From: Oxalobacteraceae bacterium
Lineage (GTDB): Bacteria > Pseudomonadota > Gammaproteobacteria > Burkholderiales > Burkholderiaceae_D
Direction: 5' to 3'
DNA length: 64,000 bases
NCBI GenBank assembly: GCA_947374865.1
Contig: CANCDR010000004.1
Span: 62,001-126,000, forward strand
In this document: positions 24,820 to 58,985 of the stretch, in pieces
Layout: each line of letters begins with the position of its first letter
Position numbering within the stretch: the stretch's first letter is position 1
Notes under the pieces: model-generated
What the model saw: the letters and a program-made list of their open reading frames with translations, nothing else
Told to the model about the DNA's origin: nothing
Databases searched by the model: none
Made by a program: the position numbers and the translations under genes

Positions 24820-25911
24820 CTAAGATTCGCCAATGAAGCGCGCGAAATGCATTTCGCGCTTGCCAAATAATGCGGCGATCACCATAAGTCGTCGGAAGTA
24901 GTGGCTAATATCAAGTTCCTCAGTGAGCCCCAAGCCACCATGCATTTGTACCGCTTCATTGGCGACTTTACGGGCTGCATGCATGATGTAAGCTTTTGCT
25001 CCGCTGACTTGTCTGGCGCGTTCAGACGCCGGTAGCGCCATTGCACGCAGAGCGTACTGCGTCAATGCTGTAATTTCTTGCTGCAGAAAGAACATATCTA
25101 CTGCACGATGCTGTAAGGCCTGATTCGTGCCGATGGCTCGGCCGAATTGTTTGCGGATCTTGAGGTAATCCACCGTAGCATGACTGAGCTTGCGAACGAT
25201 CCCGAGGGTTTCTGCGCATTGGGCAACCGTCGCCAAGTCCAGCGACGCTGCAATGACAAGATCGGCACCCTCGGCCGACTGACCGTCCAGCCGTTGCGCA
25301 GGCGCCCGGTCAAAATACACATTGGCGGCGCCGCGATCATCGATCAAGCGATAGCGCTTTATTACCACGCCTGCGGCACTTGGATCGACTAGATAGGCTT
25401 GGCGAGCACTGCCTTGTTTGGCATCGCGCGCAAACACTACGAATTGATCTGCGATATCGCCATGCAGGATACCCTCATAGCTACCGCTGATCTTACCTTC
25501 GCCAAATACAGCCAGGGGTACATGACTGCCTGGTTCTGGATGTGCAATGGCTAATTTGATCCGTCCATCAGCTAACCGGGGCAGCAAATCTGCCTTTTGT
25601 TCGGCATTCCCCAATTGTCGTAGCAGCTCGGTCCCTATAATTGCGCTCACCAGGATGGGCTCCATGAGCAGGCGCGCACCAACTACTTCCATTAAGGCCG
25701 CCACGGCAAAAACATCCGCATCCATCCCGCCGTTTTTTTCTGGCAGGCGAAGTGCCAACCAGCCTAAATTGGCATACGCATTCCAAGCCTCTTGGCTGTA
25801 CCCGGCTGGATCTGCAAGTACCTTGTGCCGCGCAAGAAAACTGTATTTTTCTTCCGCATAGCGTTGCGCGCTCTCACTCAGCATGGCGGCAGTTTCAAAA
25901 TCGATCGTCAT
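24820..25911 (-). CDS. Acyl-CoA dehydrogenase subunit, probably without the catalytic acid
   Basis: A 363-residue acyl-CoA dehydrogenase-fold protein. At the C-terminal position where MCAD has its catalytic Glu the sequence reads AALFGKREMHF, so no acidic base is present there. The gene overlaps the next dehydrogenase gene by ATGA. Adjacent, unequal pairs of this kind form alpha2-beta2 heterotetramers in steroid side-chain degradation (FadE/ChsE pairs), where one subunit supplies the base and both share FAD. That arrangement is inferred here, not shown. HGGLGLTEELDISHYFRR is a well-kept family segment. Confidence 0.78.
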   Translation of the reverse strand: MTIDFETAAMLSESAQRYAEEKYSFLARHKVLADPAGYSQEAWNAYANLGWLALRLPEKNGGMDADVFAVAALMEVVGARLLMEPILVSAIIGTELLRQLGNAEQKADLLPRLADGRIKLAIAHPEPGSHVPLAVFGEGKISGSYEGILHGDIADQFVVFARDAKQGSARQAYLVDPSAAGVVIKRYRLIDDRGAANVYFDRAPAQRLDGQSAEGADLVIAASLDLATVAQCAETLGIVRKLSHATVDYLKIRKQFGRAIGTNQALQHRAVDMFFLQQEITALTQYALRAMALPASERARQVSGAKAYIMHAARKVANEAVQMHGGLGLTEELDISHYFRRLMVIAALFGKREMHFARFIGES

Positions 25912-27083
25912 AATCCCAGTACACCTTTGGCGACAATGTTGCGCTGGATTTCGGAGGCGCCGCCAAAGATAGTCGCTGCGCGGTTATAGAGGTGCTCTTT
26001 AATAATTCCACCAGCATCTTCTGGTCCCAGCGGCGGTGCTGCCCCCACATGCAATGCGTCTTTGTCATACGCGATACCGGCTAAACCCAAGCTATCGATC
26101 AAGGCCTCAGCGATGTCTTGGTACAGTTCCGTACCGCGTAATTTGATAAAGGAAGCTTCTGTACCGTTATCCGTCCCGAGCATCATCGACTCGACTGCGT
26201 GATAGGCCCCCTGTTCCAGTGCCAGAAAGCGAAGTTCTAGTTCGCCAATACGTTGATTTACTGCGCTATTATTTTCTTGAGCAAGGGTTTTAAGCCGATC
26301 TAAAGCATGCCACGCCATGCCCACGATCGCACCGGCGGTACGTTCATTTTTTAGAAGAAACTTGGCGTAGGTCCAGCCTTCGCCCTCAGCGCCCACCAGG
26401 TTACTTGTCGGCACGCGTACGTTTTCTAACCACACTTCATTAACGTGATGGTAACCATCCATGGTTGGAATTGCTTTAACTGTGACACCGGGGCTTTTCA
26501 TATCGATTAGCAGAAAAGAGATCGCTTTTTGTGCCTGCGCTTCACGCGTCGTTTTAACGATGCAAAAGAGCCAATCGGCCCACTGCGCATAGGTGGTCCA
26601 AACTTTCTGCCCATTAACAACATAAGCATCACCATCAAGAATGGCTTCAGTGCGTAAGCTGGCCAGATCAGAACCCGCACCAGGCTCAGAATAACCTTGT
26701 GCCCAGAAATCGTCGGTGCTCGATATGCTCGGCAGAAATCGATTTTTTTGTTCTTCAGTACCGAAGGTATAAATAACCGGTCCGACATATTTGACGCCGA
26801 ATGGAATCACCCACGGGCAAGCTAGACGAGCGAGTTGATCTTCAAACGCAAATCGTTCGAGTAGAGTCCAATTCTGACCACCATATTCTTTTGGCCAGTG
26901 CCCGATGGCCCAACTTTGAGCGTCCAATAGTTTCATCCAGCTGACATACTCGGCTTTATCCAGCACTTGATGGTGAGCTGATTTTTGCTTTAGGCTGTTC
27001 GGCATTTTATCTTCATAGAATGTACGAACTTCCGCTTGTAAATTCGCCGCACGAACTCGAGCGTCAGATAACAGATCACGCAT
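25908..27083 (-). CDS. Acyl-CoA dehydrogenase (FadE type), partner of the downstream subunit
   Basis: A 391-residue acyl-CoA dehydrogenase. GYSEPGAGSDLASL and NGQKVWTTYAQWA form the flavin region, and the end IFGGASEIQRNIVAKGVLGL is typical of the FadE group in which the catalytic Glu sits elsewhere in the fold. It would make an alpha,beta-unsaturated acyl-CoA and pass electrons to ETF. It probably pairs with the overlapping gene at 24.8-25.9 kb. The APH-like gene ends 32 bp upstream on the same strand. Confidence 0.85.
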   Translation of the reverse strand: MRDLLSDARVRAANLQAEVRTFYEDKMPNSLKQKSAHHQVLDKAEYVSWMKLLDAQSWAIGHWPKEYGGQNWTLLERFAFEDQLARLACPWVIPFGVKYVGPVIYTFGTEEQKNRFLPSISSTDDFWAQGYSEPGAGSDLASLRTEAILDGDAYVVNGQKVWTTYAQWADWLFCIVKTTREAQAQKAISFLLIDMKSPGVTVKAIPTMDGYHHVNEVWLENVRVPTSNLVGAEGEGWTYAKFLLKNERTAGAIVGMAWHALDRLKTLAQENNSAVNQRIGELELRFLALEQGAYHAVESMMLGTDNGTEASFIKLRGTELYQDIAEALIDSLGLAGIAYDKDALHVGAAPPLGPEDAGGIIKEHLYNRAATIFGGASEIQRNIVAKGVLGL

Positions 27084-28768: not shown

Positions 28769-29458
28769 ATGAACGATACGAATGCACTGCTCAACGTTGA
28801 CCTTTTGAAACGGCTTGCGCCGTTCACTCGCTCCGGCTACGCCTTGTTTCGCGAGGTGATCGATATGGATGGTGCGATGCCGGCCAAACTCAAACTTCTC
28901 TGTGCTGCCGTTGCTGCATGCAACCGAGGCTATATCGAGTTGGCTGTGACCGAATTGAAAGGCGCGGCGCTGAAAGGTCTCCAACAGCAAGAAGCAGCCA
29001 GTGGTCTTATTCTTCTTAGTAGCTTGCGCGGTGAAGGCGCGGCGCTGGCCTTTGATTCGATCATTCGCCAGGTTTATCCTGCCTCAGCTACTCCTACCAT
29101 GGATCCAGGACTTGAGCGCGCCATGCCGGGGGAAGCCGAATCCAATTTCCTGTCCTACTTTGGCAGCGTACCCCCCGCACTGGCAATCCTGTTGCGCCTT
29201 GTACCGCCCGCTGCCGATGCCTATTATTTGATGCGCAAAGGTACGATTGACTGTAACCAGCTTGATCGGAAGTCTGCTGAACTCATGTTGATTGCTGTAC
29301 TGGCGTCGGACTATAGCCCAATGGCCATTACCCATATCCGTGCTGCTCGAGCAGTCGGCGCTTCAGATGCTGAAATGGCAGAGGCGATTCTTTGTGCAGT
29401 GCCTTGTGCTGGTATCGCTGCATGGATGGGAGCAGGTATGCTCCTTGAAACATCGTGA
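28769..29458 (+). CDS. Carboxymuconolactone decarboxylase-like protein, copy 2
   Basis: A 229-residue paralogue of the protein at 17.7-18.4 kb, alignable from end to end without large gaps (for example SGYALFREVIDMDGAMPAK against GGYGRFRTIVNQDGALPAK). It has the same ASDYSPMAITHIRAARAVGASDAEMAEAI region with the His but without the CxxC redox pair. Function is unknown, as for copy 1. The ATG at 28769 is clear. It is the first gene of the operon driven by site d; the oxidoreductase gene follows 7 bp later. Confidence 0.75.
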   Translation: MNDTNALLNVDLLKRLAPFTRSGYALFREVIDMDGAMPAKLKLLCAAVAACNRGYIELAVTELKGAALKGLQQQEAASGLILLSSLRGEGAALAFDSIIRQVYPASATPTMDPGLERAMPGEAESNFLSYFGSVPPALAILLRLVPPAADAYYLMRKGTIDCNQLDRKSAELMLIAVLASDYSPMAITHIRAARAVGASDAEMAEAILCAVPCAGIAAWMGAGMLLETS

Positions 29459-29465
29459 TCACAAC

Positions 29466-30530
29466 ATGATGAACACACCGACTGCTCCGTTATTGAGTCG
29501 CCAATGGAACCTTCATCGTCGACCACTGGGCCGCACTATTGCTGACGATTTAATTTGTACGACCGTACCCGTTGCGCAACTTGCGCAAGATGAAATTCTA
29601 ATTCGGGTGAAATTACTTTGTATGGATCCGACCATTCGCAACTTTATGGATGAAGATCCCGGCTATGGATTACCGATTCCGCTCGGTGGCGTTGTTCGTG
29701 GAATGATCATTGGTGAAGTGATGTCATCCAAGGCAGAGCAGGTCGTGCCAGGAACCATGGTGTGGGGTTTTGGGTCTTGGAGTGATTATGTTGTGGGACC
29801 GGCCCGACAATTCTTTGCACTTCCCACACCGCTTGCTTACGACCTACCCGTTTATGCGCATGCAATGGGCACGATTGGACTAACAGCATATTACGGTATG
29901 TTCGATATTGCCGCCCTGCGCGCCGGCGATCAAGTTTTAGTCAGTGGGGCAGCAGGCGCGGTCGGATCTCTAGCTGGTCAATTTGCCCGTCTAGGCGGTG
30001 CAGGCAAGGTCGTGGGCATAGCCGGCGGTGCTGAAAAGTGTCTACGCGCTGTACGGGATTATGGCTATGATTTATGTATCGATTACAAACAGCTTGATTC
30101 ACTCTCGTCATCACTTAAGGCTGCATTCCCAAACGGGATTGATGTCATATTTGAGAATGTTGGTGGAGCACAGCTTTCATTGGCGCTGCAATATCTAAAT
30201 AAGCACGCACGCGTAGCACTCTGTGGGATGATCGATGGCTACGGCAACCATGATCGCCAGCCAAGTAAAGACGCTCTTTGGAATTTGGTGATTAAAAGCG
30301 CGCGCTTGGAGGGCTTTTTGGTGAGCAATATTCTTAATCATAAGCACCGCACTGATGCGATGCTGGCGCAAATTCACCAATGGATAACATCGGGTTCTTT
30401 GCGTTATGACCTGGATGTCCGTTTCGGCTTTGCGTGTATTCCCAGAACATTCGACTGTCTTTTTTCTGGTCAACATAGAGGACGACTCGTCGTCCAACTC
30501 GATGACGCTTTACCATCATGCCAACTATAG
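29466..30530 (+). CDS. NADP-dependent medium-chain oxidoreductase (alkenal/enone reductase type)
   Basis: A zinc-free medium-chain dehydrogenase of about 354 residues, of the leukotriene-B4 dehydrogenase / prostaglandin reductase group. LLCMDPTIRNFMDE and PIPLGGVVRG mark the N-terminal domain; SGAAGAVGSLAGQFARL is the NADP-binding loop. These enzymes reduce the double bond of alpha,beta-unsaturated ketones or aldehydes, so it may reduce a ring enone in this pathway. Two ATG codons in a row (29466, 29469) are possible starts. The gene overlaps the next one by 13 bp. Confidence 0.82.
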   Translation: MMNTPTAPLLSRQWNLHRRPLGRTIADDLICTTVPVAQLAQDEILIRVKLLCMDPTIRNFMDEDPGYGLPIPLGGVVRGMIIGEVMSSKAEQVVPGTMVWGFGSWSDYVVGPARQFFALPTPLAYDLPVYAHAMGTIGLTAYYGMFDIAALRAGDQVLVSGAAGAVGSLAGQFARLGGAGKVVGIAGGAEKCLRAVRDYGYDLCIDYKQLDSLSSSLKAAFPNGIDVIFENVGGAQLSLALQYLNKHARVALCGMIDGYGNHDRQPSKDALWNLVIKSARLEGFLVSNILNHKHRTDAMLAQIHQWITSGSLRYDLDVRFGFACIPRTFDCLFSGQHRGRLVVQLDDALPSCQL

Positions 30531-31864
30531 GCCACGTTACTTGGCAGCTCGACGGGTGTATCGCCATTGTCACCATCAGTCACCCACCAGTTAATACCCT
30601 CTGCCTGGAAGTGCGGATCGGCTTATTGGCTGCGATTGAACGCAGCTTTCAGGACCCTGTCGTTAAGGTGCTAATAATCATTGGCGAGGGGTCGACGTTC
30701 GTGGCTGGTGCTGATATTAATGAATTCGGCAAACCTTACGGCTTCCCTTCCTTGTACGTTATCTTGGACTTGATAATGAGCGGCACCAAGCCCGTTATTG
30801 CCGCACTCCATGGCAATGCACTGGGTGGCGGCCTTGAACTTGCCCTTGCCTGTCAGTGGCGCATTGCAAATCCGACTGCCTTACTTGGACAACCAGAGGT
30901 CAAACTAGGCCTGATGCCTGGTGGCGGAGGGACACAATGGTTGACTCGGATGGCAGGACCAGAAGTCGCGCTGGAAGTTTGCACCAGTGGTATGCCCATT
31001 AGCGCTGTTCAAGCGCTTAACTGCGGCGTCGTTGATCGAATCGTGGAATCTGATTTGCTCAACGGTGCGTTGGTATTTGCGCACGAGGTCGCTACCGGGC
31101 TGCTACCTGTTCGCGACCTACATTTGGCCACCGATAAGATTCGCCACATTGATGCCAATTTTTTTTCACAATATCGCTTGCGACACCAAGAAGTATGGCG
31201 AGGTTTATTGGCACCATGGAAGATCATAGACTGCATTGAGGCGGCTTGCACCATGTCATTCACTGATGGTTTCGCTATGGAACGGCAAGCATTTCAGGCA
31301 TGCGAAGCTGGCCCGCAAAGTCGGGCCATGATTCACTTATTTTTTGCCCATCGCACACGGCAAAAAAGTAGGAAAATAACTGTTTCGGCAGGTCACGGCC
31401 AGCCGGAACTGCGCGTCGGATTTCGATTGCGTGAAGTTTTCTGCCGTGAATCATCCTTTCTCCTTGGCGAAGGTATTTCGCCAGGCTTCATTGCACATTG
31501 CCTGCGTCAATTTGGCTTTAATAGCGACTTGCCTGAGCTGATCATGCATCTGCAGTTCGATTTCATTCCACTGCACCAACCCTTACCGACGCGTCTGACT
31601 GAGTCCGATATACTGCAGCATCTTCTTTACATGATGGCGATTGAAGGTGCATGCTTACTTGATCAACAGCTTATTTACTGTGCCGGCGATATTGACGTGG
31701 TCAGTGTGACTGAACTTGGCTTTCCTGCATACCGCGGGGGAATCATGTACTGGATGCAAGAAACTGGCGAGCAGGCAATGCAGGCTTCGCTCAATTCTCT
31801 GCTCGCTCGGCATGCGGGACGTTGGCAAGCACCCGCTATGCCGAATTTTTTCAATCGCTTATGA
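30518..31864 (+). CDS. FadB/FadJ-like hydratase lacking the NAD-binding domain
   Basis: A 448-residue relative of the multifunctional fatty-oxidation protein, whose usual length is near 700. The N-terminal crotonase domain is complete: FVAGADINEF oxyanion region, Glu107 (GGGLELAL) and Glu127 (GQPEVKLG). The linker (HLFFAHRTRQKS) is present, and the last 140 residues match the C-terminal 3-hydroxyacyl-CoA dehydrogenase domain (FRLREVFCRESSFLLGEG, FPAYRGGIMYWM). The Rossmann domain between them, with its GxGxxG motif, is missing. It should hydrate enoyl-CoA or do a related crotonase reaction but cannot bind NAD in the usual way. Confidence 0.8.
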   Translation: MPTIGHVTWQLDGCIAIVTISHPPVNTLCLEVRIGLLAAIERSFQDPVVKVLIIIGEGSTFVAGADINEFGKPYGFPSLYVILDLIMSGTKPVIAALHGNALGGGLELALACQWRIANPTALLGQPEVKLGLMPGGGGTQWLTRMAGPEVALEVCTSGMPISAVQALNCGVVDRIVESDLLNGALVFAHEVATGLLPVRDLHLATDKIRHIDANFFSQYRLRHQEVWRGLLAPWKIIDCIEAACTMSFTDGFAMERQAFQACEAGPQSRAMIHLFFAHRTRQKSRKITVSAGHGQPELRVGFRLREVFCRESSFLLGEGISPGFIAHCLRQFGFNSDLPELIMHLQFDFIPLHQPLPTRLTESDILQHLLYMMAIEGACLLDQQLIYCAGDIDVVSVTELGFPAYRGGIMYWMQETGEQAMQASLNSLLARHAGRWQAPAMPNFFNRL

Positions 31865-31927: not shown

Positions 31928-31976
31928 TTCATTGCCAGGACTAAAGCGCCTGACATCACATAAGGAGAAATTGAAC

Positions 31977-32771
31977 ATGCTGGAAAAAGACGTTATCCAA
32001 TACGAAGTTGCAGACAACGGTGTTGCGACCATTTGGCTCAATCGCCCCCATAAGCGCAACTGTGTGAGCCCACAATTACTCCGGGATCTGGAAGCGGCCG
32101 TCGACCGTGCTGCTGCGGATACCAAGGCCTTGGCCGTGGTGTTTCGCGGTCGTGGCAATACATTTTGCTCGGGCGCAGATTTGGATCAGTTAGTCGGGCC
32201 TGTTCTGGCCGAAACTTCTTCTTCCCTACAATTGGCGATTGATTCGGCACGAACCTACGATAAGATATTCAATATGCGTAAGCCAACGATTGCAGCCGTG
32301 GAAGGCTATGCGGTTGCTGGTGGATTCGAGTTGATGATTTCTTGTGATTTTGCCTTGGCCACATCAGAAGCGAAAATCGGCGACTTTCATATCCGCCGTG
32401 CGCTGTTTGGCGGCGCAGGTCCCATCTATCGCTTGCCACGTATGATCGGTATGCGCCGCTCCAAGGAGTTGATGTTGACCGGCAAACTACTCACAGGAGA
32501 TCAATGTGCTGATTGGACACTAGTCAATGCCTCTGCACCACAGGCTGAATTTGATCAACTGATTGAAGATTTCTGTGCGCCTTTGATCGACAAGAGTCCA
32601 TTCTGTATGTGGATGACAAAAATGGCAGTTAACCGTGGCCTGGACGGCGATACCGATACACTGATTACACTCGAAACAATGACCTGTAACGTGGTACATC
32701 ACTCGGAAGATGCGAAGGAAGGTGTGCGCGCATTCCTTGAAAAACGTACGCCAAAGTGGACCGGTCGTTAA
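31977..32771 (+). CDS. Enoyl-CoA hydratase/isomerase family protein
   Basis: A 264-residue crotonase. FCSGADLDQL gives the oxyanion hole and GGFELMISCDFALA keeps the first acidic residue. The second catalytic Glu of true hydratases (normally in a PExxLG motif) is not seen; the region reads IGDFHIRRALFGGAG. It may therefore be an isomerase, a hydrolase or a C-C bond-cleaving member rather than a hydratase. The ATG at 31977 follows a strong Shine-Dalgarno. It is first in an operon with EthD, SDR and acyl-CoA ligase genes. Confidence 0.8.
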   Translation: MLEKDVIQYEVADNGVATIWLNRPHKRNCVSPQLLRDLEAAVDRAAADTKALAVVFRGRGNTFCSGADLDQLVGPVLAETSSSLQLAIDSARTYDKIFNMRKPTIAAVEGYAVAGGFELMISCDFALATSEAKIGDFHIRRALFGGAGPIYRLPRMIGMRRSKELMLTGKLLTGDQCADWTLVNASAPQAEFDQLIEDFCAPLIDKSPFCMWMTKMAVNRGLDGDTDTLITLETMTCNVVHHSEDAKEGVRAFLEKRTPKWTGR

Positions 32772-33155: not shown

Positions 33156-33953
33156 GTGAAAGAACATCTCCTACCGGGTTTTTTTGCCCGCCAGTTTCGG
33201 CTTGAGGGCAAGGTGGCCTTGATCATGGGTGGTCGTGGTGCGCTCGCCGAGGCCATCGCGGCTTGCTTGGCCGATCTCGGCTGCGCAGTTGCCCTTGCCT
33301 CAAGACACGAACAAGACTGCATCGCTATTGCCACGACCATTGGCGAACGCTTCCAAGTCAAATCAACGGGATTGCGCTGCGATATCTCCAAGGAAGAGGA
33401 AGTGGAGGCCACCATCAAGGCCACCGTAGATCAGCTTGGTAGCCTCGACATCTTGATCAATAATGCTGGTGCTTCATGGTGGGGGTTGCCTGAAGATATT
33501 CCACTTTCTGGCTGGCGGAAGGTCGTCGACGTCAATTTGACTGGCACCTTTTTGGCCTGTCGTCATGCTGCAAGACACATGATTGCCCATGGCGGGGGCA
33601 GTATGATCAACATCGCGTCTTCCGGCGCCTTTATCTCCTACAAGCCAGAGGATGGTCAGGTGGTCCCCTACACCACGACTAAGGCCGCCATGGTGCATCT
33701 TACCCGCGACTTGGCAGCGCAATGGGCCCATCACGGCATCCGTGTGAATGCGGTTGCACCGGGCTCCATCGAGACCGGGATGACTGAAACGCTGGAACAA
33801 GGCATACAACAAAAACTCCTCGACGGCATCCTCTTACGACGCTTCGCCCAACCTGTAGAGATGGTCGGTGCGGTGGCCTTGTTAGCGTCGAGCGCTGGTA
33901 GTTTTATTACCGGCCAAACTTATATTGTTGATGGAGGACAAACAATTGCCTGA
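33156..33953 (+). CDS. Short-chain dehydrogenase/reductase
   Basis: A 265-residue SDR. The cofactor loop is [12 protein letters not shown], a departure from the usual TGxxxGxG in that only part of the Gly pattern is kept. NNAGASWWG, the Ser in NIASSGAF and the catalytic YTTTK are present. It likely acts on a hydroxy or keto intermediate made by the neighbouring crotonase; details unknown. The start is GTG at 33156; GGAG lies 10 bases upstream. The stop overlaps the likely start of the acyl-CoA ligase gene. Confidence 0.8.
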   Translation: MKEHLLPGFFARQFRLEGKVALIMGGRGALAEAIAACLADLGCAVALASRHEQDCIAIATTIGERFQVKSTGLRCDISKEEEVEATIKATVDQLGSLDILINNAGASWWGLPEDIPLSGWRKVVDVNLTGTFLACRHAARHMIAHGGGSMINIASSGAFISYKPEDGQVVPYTTTKAAMVHLTRDLAAQWAHHGIRVNAVAPGSIETGMTETLEQGIQQKLLDGILLRRFAQPVEMVGAVALLASSAGSFITGQTYIVDGGQTIA

Positions 33954-35478
33954 ATTAATGAATAAAAATTTTCATGCAGGCGCTCTTACATGGACAGACG
34001 CTTCGCTATGGGATCAATTCTCCCAGCACCTTAGTGCTTCACCGCATTCTTTAGCAATCGTCAGTCCAGATGGTCAACTTTGGACCCGCGAAGACATGCA
34101 CAAGATGGCCTGTTCGGTGGCCGAGGCCCTCAGATGCGCCGGCGTACAAGCGCATGATCGCGTGATGTTACAAGGTAAAAAAACCGCCGCCACTCTGGCT
34201 GCAGCCTTGGGGATTTCGGCAGTCGGTGCCATCATCTGCCCGTATTCGCCCGACTTGGGCGATGCCGAACGAACTGTCCTTGATGAGCGTCTTAATTACA
34301 TTGCTTGTATCAGTGATGGCGCTGGCGATGCTATTCCAGACATGCCAACACTGAAGTTGTCTCTACGCAGCCGCATGCAACTGGAGGCACCTGACGAACG
34401 TGACGCGCAAACGGCACTTATAGGATTTACCTCCGGCACGACTGGGATCCCCAAAGGGGTCATGCACACATCGGCCGCGATGAACTACACCGTCCGCGCC
34501 TGTCAGCAGGTTGCTCGACTTGCGGAATACGATGCCATCCTCGGCATCGTGCCACTCGGTAGTGCACCGGGCTTTACTTTCACTGCACATTTTTCCTTAG
34601 CGTTGGGACATCCACTGATCATGATCGATCCTTGGGATGCGGCAAGGACGCTCAAGGCGATCGACGCCTACCAGTGTCGTTGGGGTATTTGTGTACCGAC
34701 GCACTTGGCAACGCTCATCGAATATGCCCGCACTAAAGGATGGAAGAATTCGAGCCCCCTGAAGGCTCTGGGCGTTGGTGGCAGTGCCATGACCCCCGAA
34801 TTAATTCAGGATGCACGGTCCTTGCTAGGCATAACTGCCTTGCGCATGTTTGGCATGTCAGAATGTATGGGGCACGCTTCGGTCGCGCTCGACGACGATA
34901 TGGAACGCATGATGCATTCGGACGGCATAGCATTTCCGGGCACGCGCGATGAAGCCTTCGATTTAGAAAACCAAATGTTGCCACGTGGTCAACGAGGTCA
35001 GGCAGGTGTTCTCGGACCCTCCTCGTTTCTCGGCTATTGTTACGGACTTGGCGAGCAAGAATACCGATTGACCAAGGAAGGATTTTTTCTCACTGGCGAT
35101 GAGGTGATAGTTTCCGCAGACGGTTACCTCAAGGTGGTCGGTCGTATCAAGGACCAGATTATTCGTGGCGGCTATAACATTGATGCTGCCGAGGTTGAAG
35201 CCGCCGTACTTCGTCATCCAGCTATTGCCATCGCCGTCGTCGTCGCAGTGCCAGAAAAACGCCTGGGAGAGCAGGCCTGTGCTGTGTGTTGTATTCGCCA
35301 AGGCAGCACACAGCCCACGCTCGACGAGCTCAGAGCCCATCTGACTTCGATCGGTCTGTCAAAGAAAAAATGGCCCGAATATTTACTCATCCGGGATGAA
35401 CTATCCTATACAGCGACTGGTAAAATCGACAAAAAGAAAATTGCTAAAGCCGCCATAGTGCAATTAGGGTTAATATAA
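33946..35478 (+). CDS. Acyl-CoA synthetase (AMP-forming)
   Basis: An ANL-superfamily ligase of about 510 residues that would activate a carboxylic acid with ATP and CoA, the entry step to CoA-bound degradation. GFTSGTTGIPKGVMHT is the phosphate-binding loop, TGDEVIVSADGYLKVVGR the hinge region and YTATGKIDKKKI holds the catalytic Lys. The start is uncertain: TTG 33946 has GGAGGA at the right distance, while ATG 33931 and ATG 33958 are in frame without a good ribosome site. It ends the operon that begins with the crotonase at 31.98 kb. Confidence 0.85.
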   Translation: MPELMNKNFHAGALTWTDASLWDQFSQHLSASPHSLAIVSPDGQLWTREDMHKMACSVAEALRCAGVQAHDRVMLQGKKTAATLAAALGISAVGAIICPYSPDLGDAERTVLDERLNYIACISDGAGDAIPDMPTLKLSLRSRMQLEAPDERDAQTALIGFTSGTTGIPKGVMHTSAAMNYTVRACQQVARLAEYDAILGIVPLGSAPGFTFTAHFSLALGHPLIMIDPWDAARTLKAIDAYQCRWGICVPTHLATLIEYARTKGWKNSSPLKALGVGGSAMTPELIQDARSLLGITALRMFGMSECMGHASVALDDDMERMMHSDGIAFPGTRDEAFDLENQMLPRGQRGQAGVLGPSSFLGYCYGLGEQEYRLTKEGFFLTGDEVIVSADGYLKVVGRIKDQIIRGGYNIDAAEVEAAVLRHPAIAIAVVVAVPEKRLGEQACAVCCIRQGSTQPTLDELRAHLTSIGLSKKKWPEYLLIRDELSYTATGKIDKKKIAKAAIVQLGLI

Positions 35479-35581: not shown

Positions 35582-36232
35582 ATGAAGGCTGTCGAAAAAC
35601 TACCGACTAGCAGCAAAAATAAACGAATACGCCAAACTACCGCAGCCCATGACGAAAAGCGGCTTGAGATCATCGAGTGCTGCGCGTCCCTCTTTGACCG
35701 TGTTGGTTTCCATGGCATGTCCATGCAAATGCTCGCCGATGAAGTCGGGCTTGGAAAACCAACCCTTTACCATTACTTTTCGAGCAAGAACGACATCCTC
35801 TACGATATGCATCAGATGCACATTGATGCACTGATTAACGGGCTGCAGGTAGACATCGAGAGCGCCAGCACCAAACCAGAAGAGCTGCTTGAAAAAGCCT
35901 GCGCGCAGACGCTGCGCGAAATCGCCCAGCATCCTGGTTATGTTCGGGCGTACATGGATCATTACACAGAACTCGAGGGCACACAGCGCATCGAAATGCG
36001 CAAACGTCGTACCGAATATTTTTCACGTATTACCAGCATCATCAGCAACGGCATAGCCAGCGGCAGATTCCGTAAAGTCGATGTCGAACTCGCTACCCTC
36101 GCCTTCGTCGGCATGTGCAATTGGGCCTATAAATGGTACCCAAAAAGAGCAGATAAAACACCGCCCGAAAAAATGGCCAAATCACTGTGCGATATTTTTC
36201 TCGGTGGTTTGATCATCAAGTCTGGCAAGTAA
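35582..36232 (+). CDS. TetR-family repressor, candidate regulator of the whole cluster
   Basis: A 216-residue TetR protein. The N-terminal helix-turn-helix spans about residues 28-75 (ASLFDRVGFHGMSMQMLADEVG, then KPTLYHYFSSKNDILYD); the helical ligand-binding domain follows. It is the only TetR gene in the window and stands in the middle of seven matching palindromes in promoter spacers. The effector is probably an acyl-CoA of the pathway, as in other catabolic TetR repressors; this is inference. A single half-site (CCCGACCG at 35515-35522) lies before it, so autoregulation is possible but not supported by a full operator. Confidence 0.85.
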   Translation: MKAVEKLPTSSKNKRIRQTTAAHDEKRLEIIECCASLFDRVGFHGMSMQMLADEVGLGKPTLYHYFSSKNDILYDMHQMHIDALINGLQVDIESASTKPEELLEKACAQTLREIAQHPGYVRAYMDHYTELEGTQRIEMRKRRTEYFSRITSIISNGIASGRFRKVDVELATLAFVGMCNWAYKWYPKRADKTPPEKMAKSLCDIFLGGLIIKSGK

Positions 36233-48104: not shown

Positions 48105-51100
48105 TTACATACTTCGGCGATACTGGCCGCCGACTTCAAAAAGCGCTGCGCTGATCTGACCAAGAGAACAAACCCGTACGGCCTCCATCAATTTCTCAAA
48201 GACGTTTTCGTCGGCGATGACTGACTGCTGTAGCTCTGCCAACATACGTACTGAATCGTTCTGATGTCGGGCATGAAAGTCTGCCAGGCGATTAAGCTGC
48301 GACTGCTTCTCTTGCTCGGTAGAGCGGGCCAGTTCGATTGTCGGCATCTCGATTGAAGCTTTGGGGTTGAGAAAAGTGTTAACGCCGATAATGGGCAAAG
48401 TTCCGTCATGTTTCTGATGCTCGTAGAGCATTGATTCTTCTTGAATTTTTCCGCGCTGGTAGCCTGTTTCCATGGCGCCTAATACGCCGCCGCGTTCGGC
48501 GATACGCTCAAATTCCTGCAGCACAGCCTCTTCGACCAGATCAGTCAATTCTTCGATAATGAAGCTGCCTTGATTGGGGTTTTCATTTTTGGCCAAGCCC
48601 CATTCGCTATTAATGATTAATTGGATCGCCAGTGCACGACGGACAGATTCGTCTGTAGGCGTCGTGATCGCTTCATCGTAAGCGTTGGTGTGTAATGAAT
48701 TGCAGTTATCGTAGATCGCAATGAGTGCTTGTAGAGTGGTACGGATATCGTTGAAGTCGATTTCTTGCGCATGCAGCGAACGACCTGACGTCTGAATATG
48801 GTACTTCAGCTTTTGCGCACGCTCATTGGCGCCATATTTTTCCTTCATGGCGACCGCCCAGATGCGACGCGCAACGCGACCTAGTACGGTGTATTCTGGA
48901 TCCATGCCATTGGAGAAAAAGAAAGAAAGATTCGGCGCAAACTCATCAATTTTCATACCGCGCGCCAAATACGCTTCAACGAAGGTAAATCCATTCGAAA
49001 GGGTAAAAGCCAATTGCGAAACCGGGTTTGCACCAGCCTCGGCAATATGATAACCAGAGATCGATACTGAGTAAAAATTACGCACCCGATGATCGACGAA
49101 ATACTGCTGAATATCGCCCATCACCTTGAGTGAAAACTCGGTCGAAAAAATACAGGTGTTTTGTCCCTGATCCTCCTTGAGAATATCGGCCTGTACAGTG
49201 CCTCGCACATTTTGCAAAACCCATTCGTGGATTTTTGCGTCCTCATGCGTATCAGGTACACGACCATGCTTTTGATAAAACGACTCCCGCTGCTGATCGA
49301 TCGCCGTGTTCATAAACATCGCCAGGATGGTCGGCGCCGGACCATTGATGGTCATCGATACCGAGGTCGTTGGATGGCACAGGTCAAAGCCGTCATACAG
49401 CACTTTCATGTCGTCGAGGGTCGCGATCGAGACGCCTGCATTACCGACCTTTCCGTAGATGTCTGGCCGGATAGCCGGATCAGCACCATACAGGGTGACT
49501 GAATCAAACGCCGTCGACAAACGTTTGGCTGCCATGCCTTCGGAAACTAGCTTGAAACGGCGATTGGTGCGGAATGCATCACCTTCTCCGGCGAACATCC
49601 GGGTTGGATCTTCATTTTCACGTTTGAAAGGAAATACACCTGCAGTGAATGGAAAGGCGCCAGGGACATTCTCGGCCATCAACCAGCGCAAGATTTCGCC
49701 ATGGTCTTCAAACTTTGGTAGCTGCACTTTACGGATGATCGACCCTGACAGGGTCTTATAGACAAGGCGGGTACGGACCTCCTCAAATCCGTCACCACGG
49801 CGGACCTTGACCACGTAGTCTTCGCCAGCATAGGCGGCTTTCAATTCGGGCCAGGACGCAATCATTTGTTTAGCCGCTGGATCAAGCGCATTCTCTCGCT
49901 CTGCAATGAGCGCATCAAGATCGGCATGTTTGGCATTGGCAGTCGCCATGCGTTTGGCTTCGGTTAGATGCTGTCGTTCGCGTATGTACTTAACCTGTTG
50001 CGCGGCATGTCGATGATAGCCGCGTACAACATCGGAAATCTCCGCCATGTAACGCGCGCGTGCCGGCGGCACGATTGCATTCTTGCTGTTTGAAGCATGT
50101 GAGTTAATGATAGGCAGCTTGCTCGGATTGACTTTCAATCCGAGTTTTTGTAAACATGGCAGCAGACCTTGATACAAAGCGGTGACGCCGTTATCGTTGA
50201 AGAACGACGCTTGCGTGCCATAGACGGGCATCGCTTCAAGTGGCGTGGAAAATAGTTCTCGATTGCGCTGGTATTGTTTTGCCACGTCGCGCAAGGCATC
50301 GTCTGCACCCTTGCGATCAAACTTGTTGATGACGACAAAGTCGGCAAAATCTAACATGTCGATTTTTTCCAGCTGCGAAGCGGCGCCAAACTCAGGCGTC
50401 ATGACATACATCGAAAGATCAACCAGCGGCACGATCGCTGCATCACCTTGACCGATACCCGAAGTCTCAATAATGATGAGATCAAAGCCGGCGACTTTAC
50501 AGGCCGCGATCACGTCTGGCAATGCCTGCGATATTTCTGAGCCAGCGTCACGCGTTGCTAAAGAACGCATGAAAATCCGTGACTGGCCGTTCCATGGATT
50601 AATCGCATTCATGCGAATACGATCACCAAGCAGTGCACCACCGGATTTACGCCGCGAAGGATCAATCGAAATCACGGCGACATTGAGCGCGTCCTCTTGA
50701 TCCAGTCGGATGCGACGAATCAGTTCATCCGTCAAAGATGACTTGCCAGCACCGCCTGTGCCAGTAATCCCCAGGACCGGCACCTTGCTCAAGCTAGCCG
50801 CATCGATCAATTCTGCCTTCAGTGCAGCGTTGATCTGCCCGCCCTCCAATGCTGTGATCAACTGCGCCAACGGACGTTGACGCGCCAGCATGGTGCCGCT
50901 AGTAAGCCCGGATAGCGTCTTGGGTGCCATTAAAGATAAGTCGACATCGCAAGCTTGCAGCATCGAGAGGATCATACCCACCAAACCCATTCGCTGGCCA
51001 TCTTCCGGACTGAAAATATGTGTCACACCATAGGCATGCAGATCGGCGATTTCGGCCGGTACGATCACACCGCCACCACCACCAAAAACCTTGATATGAG

Positions 51101-51395
51101 ATCCACCACGCTCGCGCAACAAATCAATCATGTACTTAAAGTACTCGACATGACCACCTTGATAACTGGAGATGGCAATACCTTGTGCATCCTCTTGCAA
51201 CGCCGCGGTGACGATTTCATCGACTGAACGGTTATGCCCCAGGTGGATGACTTCAGCGCCATTCGCCATCAAAATGCGGCGCATAATATTGATCGAGACA
51301 TCGTGACCATCGAACAGCGAGGCTGCTGTCACGAATCGGACTTTATTTAGCAGCTTGATGTCGGTCAGTTTGTTTGTCAAAGACAGGTCTGTCAT
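48105..51395 (-). CDS. icmF: Fused B12-dependent isobutyryl-CoA mutase (IcmF type)
   Basis: A 1096-residue fusion in the order B12-binding domain, MeaI-type G-protein chaperone, and large mutase subunit. [11 protein letters not shown] holds the cobalt-coordinating His31. [14 protein letters not shown], near residue 210, is the P-loop of the GTPase, which gates cofactor loading. The substrate barrel occupies about residues 550-1090. Length and order match IcmF, which interconverts isobutyryl-CoA and n-butyryl-CoA; some members also convert pivalyl-CoA and isovaleryl-CoA. Choice between these needs the active-site residues to be aligned. ATG 51395 was chosen over TTG 51413. AdoCbl would depend on uptake, consistent with the riboswitch-controlled receptor at 8.1-10 kb. 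Confidence 0.9.
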
Positions 51396-51426
51396 AGAAT
51401 TTGTGCGCCGCAATATGAGGGGGTTG

Positions 51427-52569: not shown

Positions 52570-52836
52570 ATCAGGTATGCCAACTAAGTTTGATACTGCG
52601 AATGACTCACGAAGCGACTCGGCGCTTTGATTCCAAGCCTCATTATAAATATGCAGATTACCACTTGAATGGGCTTAGGCCGGGGCAGCGACATTTTCCG
52701 TCAAGATAATTGACATTTTTTATCATAGGACAGCCTTACAATTTTTTCTATACTCCATCGCAATGCATTATATGTTGGCGAATTCTATCGGCGACATTGG
52801 GTTCTTATCTATAGCATTTTCATAAAGGTGTATGGT

Positions 52837-53685
52837 ATGTCGATACAATCAATCGGAATTGTCGGTGCAGGTCTGATGGGGGGCGGAATAGCCCAGGTTT
52901 GCGCTGCTGCTGGGCTAGATGTGATTTTGTGCGACATCCATCAGGATGTGGTCGATCGTGCCATCAAAACGATTAGCGGTAACCTTGAGCGCCAGGTCAC
53001 CAAAGAAAAGCTTACCGCCGATCTTGCTGCAGCAAGCTTAGCCCGCATCAAGGGAAGTACCCATCTAGCCGATCTGTCGATCTGCGATTTTCTGATCGAG
53101 GCTGCTACAGAAAATCTCGATATCAAACAAAAACTGTTAAAACAGCTCGATGCCGTTGCCAAACCAGGCAGTATCATCGCTACGAACACATCGTCCGTCT
53201 CCATCACCAAACTTGCAGCTTGCCTGAGCCAGCCAGAGCGACTGGTTGGCATGCACTTCTTCAACCCCGTCCCTGTTATGGCGCTTGTCGAAGTAATCCG
53301 TGGCATTCAAACCAGCAACCTTGTATTTGACGCCACATTAGCCCTTGCCGAACGTATTGGCAAGACCTCAATCAGCGCAAAAAATTCTCCTGGCTTTGTC
53401 GTTAATCGTATTCTGGTACCAATGATTAATGAGGCCATCTTTGTATTGCAAGAAGGTCTTGCGAGCGCAGAGGAAATCGATGCCGGCATGAAGCTGGGTG
53501 CCAATCATCCCATTGGACCGCTCGCCTTAGCTGACCTGATCGGCTTGGAAACTCTGTTGGCAGTCATGGAAGTGCTGCATCGCGATTTCAATGACCCGAA
53601 ATATCGTCCAGCACTGCTGTTACGCGAAATGGTCGATGCTGGTTATTTAGGCCGCAAAACCAAACAAGGTTTCTATACCTATTGA
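52837..53685 (+). CDS. 3-hydroxybutyryl-CoA dehydrogenase (3-hydroxyacyl-CoA dehydrogenase)
   Basis: A 282-residue enzyme of normal length. The NAD-binding motif GAGLMGGGIAQ is at about residues 9-19, followed by Asp in LCDIHQD. NTSSVSITKLA and the catalytic His in GMHFFNPVPVM are present, as is the C-terminal domain GKTSISAKNSPGFVVNRILVPMINEA. It oxidises 3-hydroxyacyl-CoA to the 3-oxo form for the thiolase. The ATG at 52837 has AAAGG upstream; GTG 52828 is in frame. Because the FadJ-like protein at 30.5 kb has lost its NAD domain, this enzyme or an SDR must supply that step in the cluster. Confidence 0.9.
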   Translation: MSIQSIGIVGAGLMGGGIAQVCAAAGLDVILCDIHQDVVDRAIKTISGNLERQVTKEKLTADLAAASLARIKGSTHLADLSICDFLIEAATENLDIKQKLLKQLDAVAKPGSIIATNTSSVSITKLAACLSQPERLVGMHFFNPVPVMALVEVIRGIQTSNLVFDATLALAERIGKTSISAKNSPGFVVNRILVPMINEAIFVLQEGLASAEEIDAGMKLGANHPIGPLALADLIGLETLLAVMEVLHRDFNDPKYRPALLLREMVDAGYLGRKTKQGFYTY

Positions 53686-57281: not shown

Positions 57282-58985
57282 TTATAAAGCCTCGGACAGA
57301 CCTGGATTGTTCTTCACGCCTTTGATGATCGGCAGATTGAGTGCACTCGGTCGGATCGTCTTGTGCGCCTTCAGATAACGCGTCATCAAATCCCAGATCG
57401 GCTCGCCGCTGGCACCCTCGGCCACCGGCGCCCAGCCGGCGACCTTGTACTGTTTATTCGCATCGAGTGCCTTGCCATGCAGGCGCATGTCGGAAATACG
57501 CCGACCCGCGCCGGCGGCAGGATCAATCGTGTAATGCAAACCGCCTACTCGCACCATATCGCCCCCCTGCTGATAATACGGATCCGGGTTAAACAGATTA
57601 TCGGCCACGTCTTCCAGAATGGTCTTGATGGTCGCGCCAGTCATGTTGGTCAGACTGGTGGATGGATAGGTAATCGCCGTCTGGTCCATCAGATGTTCGA
57701 GCGTGATGGCCTGCCCTGGCAAGAGCGAGGTCCCCCAGCGAAATCCGGGCGAGAAAGCGATCTCGGCATTTTTTTCTGCCATCAGGCCGTCGAGGATCAA
57801 TTGATCGATCGTGCCATTGAAATTACCCCGCCGGTACAGCAAGCCTTCACTGACCGACAGTGTTTGTGCCAACTTGTCCGCATACGGTGCGCGCAGTGTT
57901 TCGATCAGCGTGGACATGGCCGGATCGGCCGGCAGCAGGTTGGCAAAAATCGGCATCAGCTTGTAATGGAAATCGCTGATGCGGCCATTCTTTACATCGA
58001 AATCCAGCACGCCGAGGAACTTACCGTTGGAACCAGCGTTCGTGACCAGCGTTTTTCCTGCCGCGTTGGCGACGATGACCGGCGCCGGCACGCCGTCGTG
58101 GGTATGACCGCCGAGAATGGCATCGATGCCGGTCACGCGTGCGGCCATTTTCAGATCAACGTCCATGCCATTGTGCGATAACAGCACCACGACCTGCGCC
58201 CCTTTGGCGCGCGCGGCATCCACAGTGGCCTGCATGGTCTGTTCCTGAATACCGAAGGTCCAATCGGCCACCAGATGGCGTGGATTAGCGATTGGGGTAT
58301 AGGGAAATGCCTGGCCGATAATAGCCACGGCAACGCCATTCATCTGCCGCAATGTGAAGGGTTCGAATACCGGATCGCCGAAGTCGGCGGTGGTGATATT
58401 TTGTGCCAGGAACTGGATGCGGTCTTTGAAGTCATGCTCGACGATCTGCTTGACGCGTTCAGCGCCGAGCGTGAACTCCCAGTGGCCGGTCATGATATCG
58501 ACGCCAAGTAGTTTGGCTGCCTCGACCATATCTTGCCCGCGCGTCCAGAGGGCGGTCGCCGAACCTTGCCAGGTATCGCCGCCATCAAGCAGTAGCGCAT
58601 TGGGCCGCCCGGCTTTGAGACGCTGAATCAGCGTAGCCAAATGCGCGAAGCCGCCGACCTTGCCAAAAGTATTGGCCGCAGCAGCAAAATCAAGATGCGT
58701 GAAAGCGTGCGCCTGCGCAGAATGGGGAGCGATGCCAAACTGCCGTAGTAAGGCATCGCCGACCAAATGCGGCGCCTTGCCAGCCAGCGCACCGATGCCT
58801 AAATTGACATTCGGTTCGCGAAAATAAATCGGCTTGAGTTGCGCATGACAGTCGGTAAAGTGCAGCAAATGCACATTACCAAAACGCGGCAGGTCGTACC
58901 AGTCACCCGCCTGGACCAGACTGGGCAAGGCCATGCCCCCCGCGCTGGCCACGGCCAGCATTTGCAAGAATTCACGTCGTTGCAT
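57282..58985 (-). CDS. soxB: Thiosulfohydrolase SoxB
   Basis: A 567-residue periplasmic enzyme with a Tat-type signal (MQRREFLQML). It releases sulfate from the sulfonated SoxY carrier. Metal-binding motifs of the 5'-nucleotidase fold are complete: FTDCHAQ (Asp45, His47), GGDTWQGSA, GHWEF and GGHTHDG. Two manganese ions are used in known SoxB. Length is normal. It follows soxX by 44 bp in a compact operon. Confidence 0.95.
   Translation of the reverse strand: MQRREFLQMLAVASAGGMALPSLVQAGDWYDLPRFGNVHLLHFTDCHAQLKPIYFREPNVNLGIGALAGKAPHLVGDALLRQFGIAPHSAQAHAFTHLDFAAAANTFGKVGGFAHLATLIQRLKAGRPNALLLDGGDTWQGSATALWTRGQDMVEAAKLLGVDIMTGHWEFTLGAERVKQIVEHDFKDRIQFLAQNITTADFGDPVFEPFTLRQMNGVAVAIIGQAFPYTPIANPRHLVADWTFGIQEQTMQATVDAARAKGAQVVVLLSHNGMDVDLKMAARVTGIDAILGGHTHDGVPAPVIVANAAGKTLVTNAGSNGKFLGVLDFDVKNGRISDFHYKLMPIFANLLPADPAMSTLIETLRAPYADKLAQTLSVSEGLLYRRGNFNGTIDQLILDGLMAEKNAEIAFSPGFRWGTSLLPGQAITLEHLMDQTAITYPSTSLTNMTGATIKTILEDVADNLFNPDPYYQQGGDMVRVGGLHYTIDPAAGAGRRISDMRLHGKALDANKQYKVAGWAPVAEGASGEPIWDLMTRYLKAHKTIRPSALNLPIIKGVKNNPGLSEAL

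Follow-up and report, generated by a model that had tools for sequence, protein, structure and literature searches.

MFE1, FadB and FadJ are bifunctional hydratase-dehydrogenases that carry out two steps of fat breakdown. Two described examples, rat MFE1 (2x58, 6zib) and the multifunctional enzyme (MFE) of Ralstonia eutropha H16 (6ium), are chains of ~700 residues with a crotonase domain (A), a linker helix (B, or helix-10), a nicotinamide adenine dinucleotide (NAD)-binding domain (C) and domains D and E. According to the available part of PMC10988713, D and E have the topology of the 3-hydroxyacyl-coenzyme A (CoA) dehydrogenase (HAD) dimerisation domain, and domain E is in tight contact with the linker helix. 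The accessible text of PMC5715344 likewise has domain E packing on this helix in rat MFE1 and reports, citing Kiema et al. 2002, that the rat enzyme has full hydratase activity without domain C and loses it without D/E; the roles of rat Glu103, Glu123, Phe271 and Lys275 and the list of HAD residues used below follow the same text. The window analyzed here, a stretch of 64,000 nucleotides from an Oxalobacteraceae bacterium (assembly GCA_947374865.1, contig CANCDR010000004.1), carries at 30518–31864 (+) a MFE1/FadJ-type gene that lacks the NAD domain. The gene is real and its frame intact, 448 codons with zero internal stops, and it encodes an MFE1 trimmed of domains. Crotonase domain, linker, start of D and domain E align in order with 6ium and rat MFE1, whereas the NAD domain, the second half of D and the HAD residues are absent. 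The resulting A-B-D/E arrangement is that of the laboratory rat variant without domain C, with its reported full hydratase activity (PMC5715344, in the part available), but the window protein is natural, has also lost half of D, and is known here from its sequence and a structure model.

The boundaries of the two losses are seen in a phmmer comparison with 6ium, where residues 9–284, 294–335 and 359–438 match 5–280, 471–512 and 597–677, respectively. In the first loss, ~190 chain residues (6ium 281–470), comprising the NAD domain with its GxGxxG motif, are replaced by ~9 residues; in the second, residues 336–358 stand in for 6ium 513–596, a net loss of ~60 residues that removes the second half of domain D. 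What remains behind the linker is ~42 residues of D, and domain E. Taken alone, the E stretch is significant (30.9 bits, i-Evalue 1.1e-6), while the D-start stretch is not (6.6 bits, i-Evalue 26), and is assigned because of its order between the other two stretches, the alignment and the model. An earlier note, made from the letters alone, had described an intact frame, a missing NAD domain of about 190 residues including GxGxxG, and a retained crotonase Glu pair, and all of this is borne out: the pair is E107 and E127, invariant in a 24-row alignment. Its further statement that both flanking domains are kept is right for the crotonase domain but overlooked the loss within D. Both CoA-touching residues of helix-10 are also kept (F275 for rat Phe271, R279 for rat Lys275). 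The HAD catalytic residues Ser410, His431, Ser434 and Glu443 of the rat enzyme fall in the deletion, and the equivalent of Asn481 is F302.

Pfam reports only crotonase families for the window protein (PF00378, 125 bits); at E≤10 no match is listed to PF02737 (NAD-binding), nor to PF00725, for which the filters drop most matches above about 0.1. The NCBIfam FadJ/FadB equivalogs score far below their cut-offs (PRK11154, 176 bits vs 869; TIGR02440, 131 vs 968). With only its crotonase domain recognized by Pfam, the window protein illustrates how automatic annotation would tend to overlook this class. A monofunctional, crotonase-only hydratase of ~260 residues was considered and rejected: E and, weakly, the D start are present, and the whole chain matches MFE1.

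An AlphaFold2 model, built from 24 sequences with full-length relatives among them, has a mean predicted local distance difference test (pLDDT) score of 86.1 and a predicted template modeling score of 0.86. Low-confidence parts are residues 1–3, 281–300 (junction 1), 341–360 (junction 2, about 60) and 431–448 (60–64), whereas the remnant blocks reach pLDDT 77–92 outside the junctions and the last 18 residues. The D start is modeled as two helices (296–317 and 322–332), and linker helix and D/E keep the MFE1 arrangement, half of D being missing in the alignment. VIA-align superposes 441 residues on rat MFE1 (6zib/6z5f, chain −1 or 0 to 711) at 2.4–2.5 Å with Z 37, low-confidence stretches being left out of this comparison, and 440 residues on 6ium at 3.6 Å with Z 37.6. 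The earlier note had suggested predicting the structure of the junction near residue 290; the model places the D/E remnant as in rat MFE1, but the junction itself has pLDDT below 50 over residues 286–295.

The protein is probably an MFE1 reduced to a hydratase (perhaps also a Delta3,Delta2-enoyl-CoA isomerase), with the D/E remnant bracing the linker helix. Domain A would hydrate trans-2-enoyl-CoA through Glu107 and Glu127, and the linker helix would cover the active site and hold the CoA through F275 and R279. With the NAD domain and half of D gone there would be no oxidation of 3-hydroxyacyl-CoA, a step that would fall to a separate enzyme, while the D-start helices and E would lie against the linker helix and keep it in place above the hydratase site. 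We infer the activity, the bracing role in this protein and the dehydrogenase takeover. A hydratase with a helix-10 brace is the economical reading because the protein amounts to the rat variant without domain C occurring in nature, and the intact frame, the two in-frame losses and the retention of the Glu pair, F275 and R279 agree with it. If it is right, evolution has repeated the laboratory deletion showing that the MFE1 hydratase needs D/E and not the NAD domain, and short forms would offer material on the role of E for the hydratase and on why part of a two-step fusion persists. No description of a natural MFE1 without the NAD domain was found in the literature, judged by titles.

The architecture recurs in other genomes. 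Locus L072 (genome G379, from the window's order) encodes 442 amino acids with nearly identical boundaries, matching 6ium at 2–281, 469–513 (5.5 bits only) and 595–657; its D start is also seen by Pfam as a partial 3HCDH domain (26 bits). L088 (G726) has likewise the architecture of the window protein, and belongs to family f95, in which 11 of 198 genomes (G726 included) match nearly the whole query with frames of 448–579 amino acids. The ten besides G726 are 39–47% identical, and a TGA interrupts one of the matches. The family f95 is from another class of the phylum, probably the Alphaproteobacteria to judge only from a resemblance to a Pseudorhodobacter sequence. Its short members (L088, L095–L104) lack C and half of D, keep E, and have boundaries similar to those of the window protein; L096 matches 6ium at 4–291, 485–523 (non-significant) and 605–694, and in both L096 and L101 the E part gives a Pfam match to 3HCDH. 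In an alignment of 13 short forms (the window gene, L072, L088 and L095–L104), all have G333, E376, G377, D393, G408 and G417. Unlike the window protein, six of the 11 f95 members (L095, L099, L101, L102, L103 and L104) have Asp or Gln in place of one or both catalytic Glu, so part of this family may not be hydratases. The earlier note would have taken a deletion unique to this genome as the mark of a degenerate gene; it is not unique, since a conserved family of the same architecture exists in f95. The homologue group of similar length that the note had proposed to look for is likewise found there, but outside the clade of the window gene, which has full-length proteins at up to 48% identity as its nearest relatives.

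Recurrence of the architecture also bears on a trivial explanation, that two pieces of a full-length gene were wrongly joined in assembly. The genome is a draft in 44 contigs, but an artefact would have to account for two independent in-frame losses that left non-homologous spacers, in a gene lying deep within its contig (C4:92518–93861; the window reaches C4:126000), and we regard it as barely credible.

Other proteins have lost the dehydrogenase by a different outline. L031 and L085–L087 (53–55% identical to L031) keep the hydratase part with a defunct dehydrogenase part, as in the window protein, but their NAD region, though degenerate and reduced in size (in L031 Pfam gives no NAD match), is still present, and of E only a short remnant is left; they are placed elsewhere in the tree. 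L080 (608 amino acids) has no GxGxxG stretch and, as read from its sequence, only half of D, and a PF02737 score of 35 bits persists across the second half of its NAD domain. A similar frame, L114, of at least 617 amino acids and cut by the record end, occurs on a Pseudorhodobacter turbinis plasmid (NZ_CP039965.1, 3896–5746); its NAD domain is degenerate, half of D is absent as far as can be read from the sequence, and it resembles an intermediate between the full-length and the short forms. Three frames of 298–327 amino acids (L075, 3221–4114; L076, 2811–3791; L077, 3385–4323) consist of crotonase and linker only, and would need another way to hold helix-10. Eight short frames were set aside as cut by contig ends (L073, L074, L078, L079, L081, L090–L092), as was L089, which has a run of N; further candidate short frames are found in G1058, G1034, G1038, G1073, G835, G892, G834, G825, G1137 and G1629.

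A maximum-likelihood tree of the crotonase-linker columns (61 rows; 35 loci that were the window's own, repeated, near-identical or cut stayed outside) groups the window gene with full-length L013 and L021 (93/94), on a branch that is unstarred, with the bootstrap unsettled and the composition of the window row unusual. L072 stands beside full-length L093 (100/100), the L088 family forms its own clade (100/99), and the L031-like proteins take a separate position. A quicker tree agrees in placing the window gene with L013/L021 (0.993). A single clade of the window gene and L072 is rejected (approximately unbiased test, p-AU 8e-7), as is, less firmly, one of the window gene and the L088 family (p-AU 0.024, for a group named after the tree had been seen). 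Judged by these trees, window gene, L072 and the L088 family appear on separate branches, the window gene being one of several independent cases. More generally, bacterial MFE1 may have lost the NAD domain and half of D independently on three or more occasions, the D start and E being retained each time, giving a natural hydratase-only class whose remnant would serve as helix-10 brace or partner-docking surface, with the degenerate-NAD forms (L080, L114, L031-like) as other stages or routes; this we put forward tentatively, as somewhat less probable than its opposite.

The nearest relatives of the gene are full length. Of 27 loci in the genome collection, 26 lie in frames of 659–800 amino acids (two of which run to a contig end), the exception being L031 from Vreelandella zhaodongensis (495 amino acids). 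Matches below 1e-20 occur in 47 of 60 relatives (own genome included), and among the matches listed, those extending to query residue 270 or further lie in frames of at least 648 amino acids, bar the window gene and G015, in which the match contains a stop. L013, the nearest relative, shares 48% identity in the crotonase part, and G001, the other member of the window's genus, carries a 695-residue frame at 39% identity. No close orthologue was found among the 60 relatives or in the overlapping sets of 399 order, 398 phylum, 392 family and 350 class genomes, the family and class draws giving only matches below E 1e-63 and 1e-66, respectively, and the phylum draw only its top matches, so that weaker short forms there would escape. 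Neither L013 nor L021 shows three or more of 16 probe genes from the window cluster. The window protein matches 168 records of the plasmid collection; cover reaches 80% or more in two of them, and one of these (H8, L113) is full length at 708 amino acids. A second copy was not found in the two genomes of G979's genus. One MFE frame, L049 (G040:C5, 241–3576; 1112 amino acids), has ~400 extra residues ahead of the MFE.

Constraint on the remnant bears on the choice between the hydratase-and-brace reading and an alternative that we consider fairly unlikely, namely that the gene is decaying, its dehydrogenase part deleted, its crotonase active or not, and D/E passive debris. Selection on the window gene is not measurable because there is no close orthologue, and rates were compared instead across rows. 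The terminal E/A branch ratio has a median of 0.91 in 39 full-length rows (90th percentile 2.03; the largest value in a long row is 2.89, in L082). It is 0.53–1.68 in the L088 family, 1.0 in L080, 2.36–3.42 in the L031-like rows and 6.27 in L072. By these ratios E evolves at a near-normal rate in the conserved L088 family and looks relaxed in L072, with the window gene between them. Mean E identity is 0.52 in 586 full-length pairs with crotonase identity 0.35–0.50, and the window gene, compared with 38 full-length rows, averages 0.32 in E and 0.41 in A. The ratio of non-synonymous to synonymous rates (dN/dS) for L085 vs L086 is 0.14 (A), 0.33 (degenerate C) and 0.085 (E end; 71 codons with few changes), for L085 vs L087 0.09 (A) and 0.16 (E end) at a dS of about 2, and for full-length L013/L021 0.14 (A) and 0.29 (E); saturation affected several other dS values. 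In a pattern scan, Arg occupies the E side of the linker-E salt bridge in 16 of 17 short or degenerate rows vs 11 of 38 full-length rows (leaving aside 3 rows without a score and 4 that were broken or crotonase-only; shared ancestry uncorrected), and L013 and L021, the full-length neighbors of the window gene, are already without it.

Several observations weigh against the hydratase-and-brace reading, and some of them are what decay would predict. The E/A ratio of the window gene is 2.61 (topology fixed), faster than in most full-length rows. It has H278 and A404, where 12 of the 13 short forms have Glu and Arg, the positions (278 being rat Glu274) of the linker-E salt bridge in the accessible text of PMC5715344; H278 is a private change. 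In the other lone case, dN/dS for L072 vs L093 is 0.69 (D start) and 0.82 (E), vs 0.29 (A). No close orthologue was found, every other match listed being at most 48% identical. Foldseek puts the same MFE1 entries at the head of its ranking, with looser structural matches (root-mean-square deviation 4.8–7.6 Å, TM-score 0.80–0.84 over the top 20, all of them 6ium, rat MFE1 or Arabidopsis MFP2); the alignment behind the model, built on full-length relatives, misplaces some residues near junction 1, and the model may be tilted toward the ancestral arrangement. A HAD probe found no HAD gene in the stretches around L085–L088, L072 and L107–L112. Against decay stand the two separate in-frame losses without a stop or frameshift in 448 codons, the kept catalytic and CoA-contact residues, a codon-position G+C pattern in the D start and E that resembles the crotonase part, and the conservation of the same pieces in f95.

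The fast E could also reflect remodeling, as expected if D/E in this hydratase had taken on a new role in docking a partner (e.g. the neighboring SDR or the acyl-CoA dehydrogenases) or in self-association. The HAD dimerisation topology of D and E (PMC10988713, in the part available) would suit such a role, and loss of half of D would expose new surface. We consider it improbable, as the rat deletion result accounts for the retention of D/E without it (PMC5715344, in the part available). On that same result, a linker-helix brace is a better explanation than dimerisation or substrate binding, for which the earlier note suggested that the C-terminal domain may have been kept.

It is plausible, as the earlier note proposed, that the dehydrogenase step has moved to another gene. 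Candidates are the SDR of the same gene run, the stand-alone dehydrogenase further along the window (Table 1), and full HAD proteins elsewhere in the genome, which has four near-complete PF02737 proteins: 730 amino acids (C15, both HAD domains confirmed), the gene at 52828, 514 amino acids (C27) and 799 amino acids (C5), besides two further, short matches. L031 has a stand-alone HAD gene directly downstream. L085–L087 are followed by an acyl-CoA dehydrogenase pair like that of the window (42–44% and 28–31% identity). The same kind of pair also follows the MFE genes L020, L022 and L032, which are full length.

Table 1. Positions in the window of the trimmed MFE1 gene, its parts, and nearby genes.
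Feature	Position	Strand	Basis
NAD-domain-less MFE1/FadJ-like gene, 448 residues	30518..31864	+	frame; alignment to 6ium
Domain A, crotonase fold, residues 7–258	30536..31291	+	PF00378, 125 bits; model
Catalytic Glu107 (rat MFE1 Glu103)	30836..30838	+	alignment to 2x58; invariant in 24 rows
Catalytic Glu127 (rat MFE1 Glu123)	30896..30898	+	alignment to 2x58; invariant in 24 rows
Domain B, linker helix/helix-10, residues 259–284	31292..31369	+	alignments
Junction 1, NAD domain (domain C) missing; pLDDT < 50 over 286–295	31370..31402	+	alignment; model
First ~40 residues of domain D, residues 296–335	31403..31522	+	6.6 bits; alignment; model
Junction 2, second half of D missing, residues 336–360	31523..31597	+	alignment; pLDDT ~60 from 341
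Domain E, residues 361–438	31598..31831	+	30.9 bits to 6ium 597–677; model helices
Two overlapping acyl-CoA dehydrogenase genes, the larger pimC-like	24820..27083	-	355 bits vs cut-off 624
MDR-family reductase, upstream (CurA-like, below cut-off), overlapping the gene start	29292..30530	+	longest frame
Enoyl-CoA hydratase/isomerase-family gene, downstream	31932..32771	+	family match
SDR oxidoreductase, candidate 3-hydroxyacyl-CoA dehydrogenase of the gene run	33156..33953	+	NCBIfam match below cut-off; role inferred
Acyl-CoA ligase	33925..35478	+	family match
Stand-alone 3-hydroxybutyryl-CoA dehydrogenase	52828..53685	+	449 bits vs cut-off 408

The gene lies in a catabolic CoA-ester cluster. 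Its ATG sits 13 nt inside the end of the MDR reductase frame, which is given as the longest frame and may really start further in. On the same strand, 3′ of the gene, follow the enoyl-CoA hydratase-family gene, an EthD-domain gene, the SDR and the acyl-CoA ligase; after the ligase, the frame at 35582–36232 is TetR-like by eye and matched no family under the limits used. The divergent set upstream contains, besides the acyl-CoA dehydrogenase pair, an APH-family gene, an SDR and an MFS transporter. The PimF-type MFE of pimeloyl-CoA degradation clusters is a further related system, in view of the window's acyl-CoA dehydrogenase pair with its pimC-like large subunit (pimeloyl-CoA dehydrogenase), a likeness below the cut-off. 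Elsewhere in the window, 48105–51413 (-) encodes a fusion of 1102 amino acids with B12-binding, MeaB GTPase and methylmalonyl-CoA mutase domains, which we take to be IcmF-like, and 57282–58985 (-) encodes the thiosulfohydrolase SoxB (865 bits vs cut-off 550).

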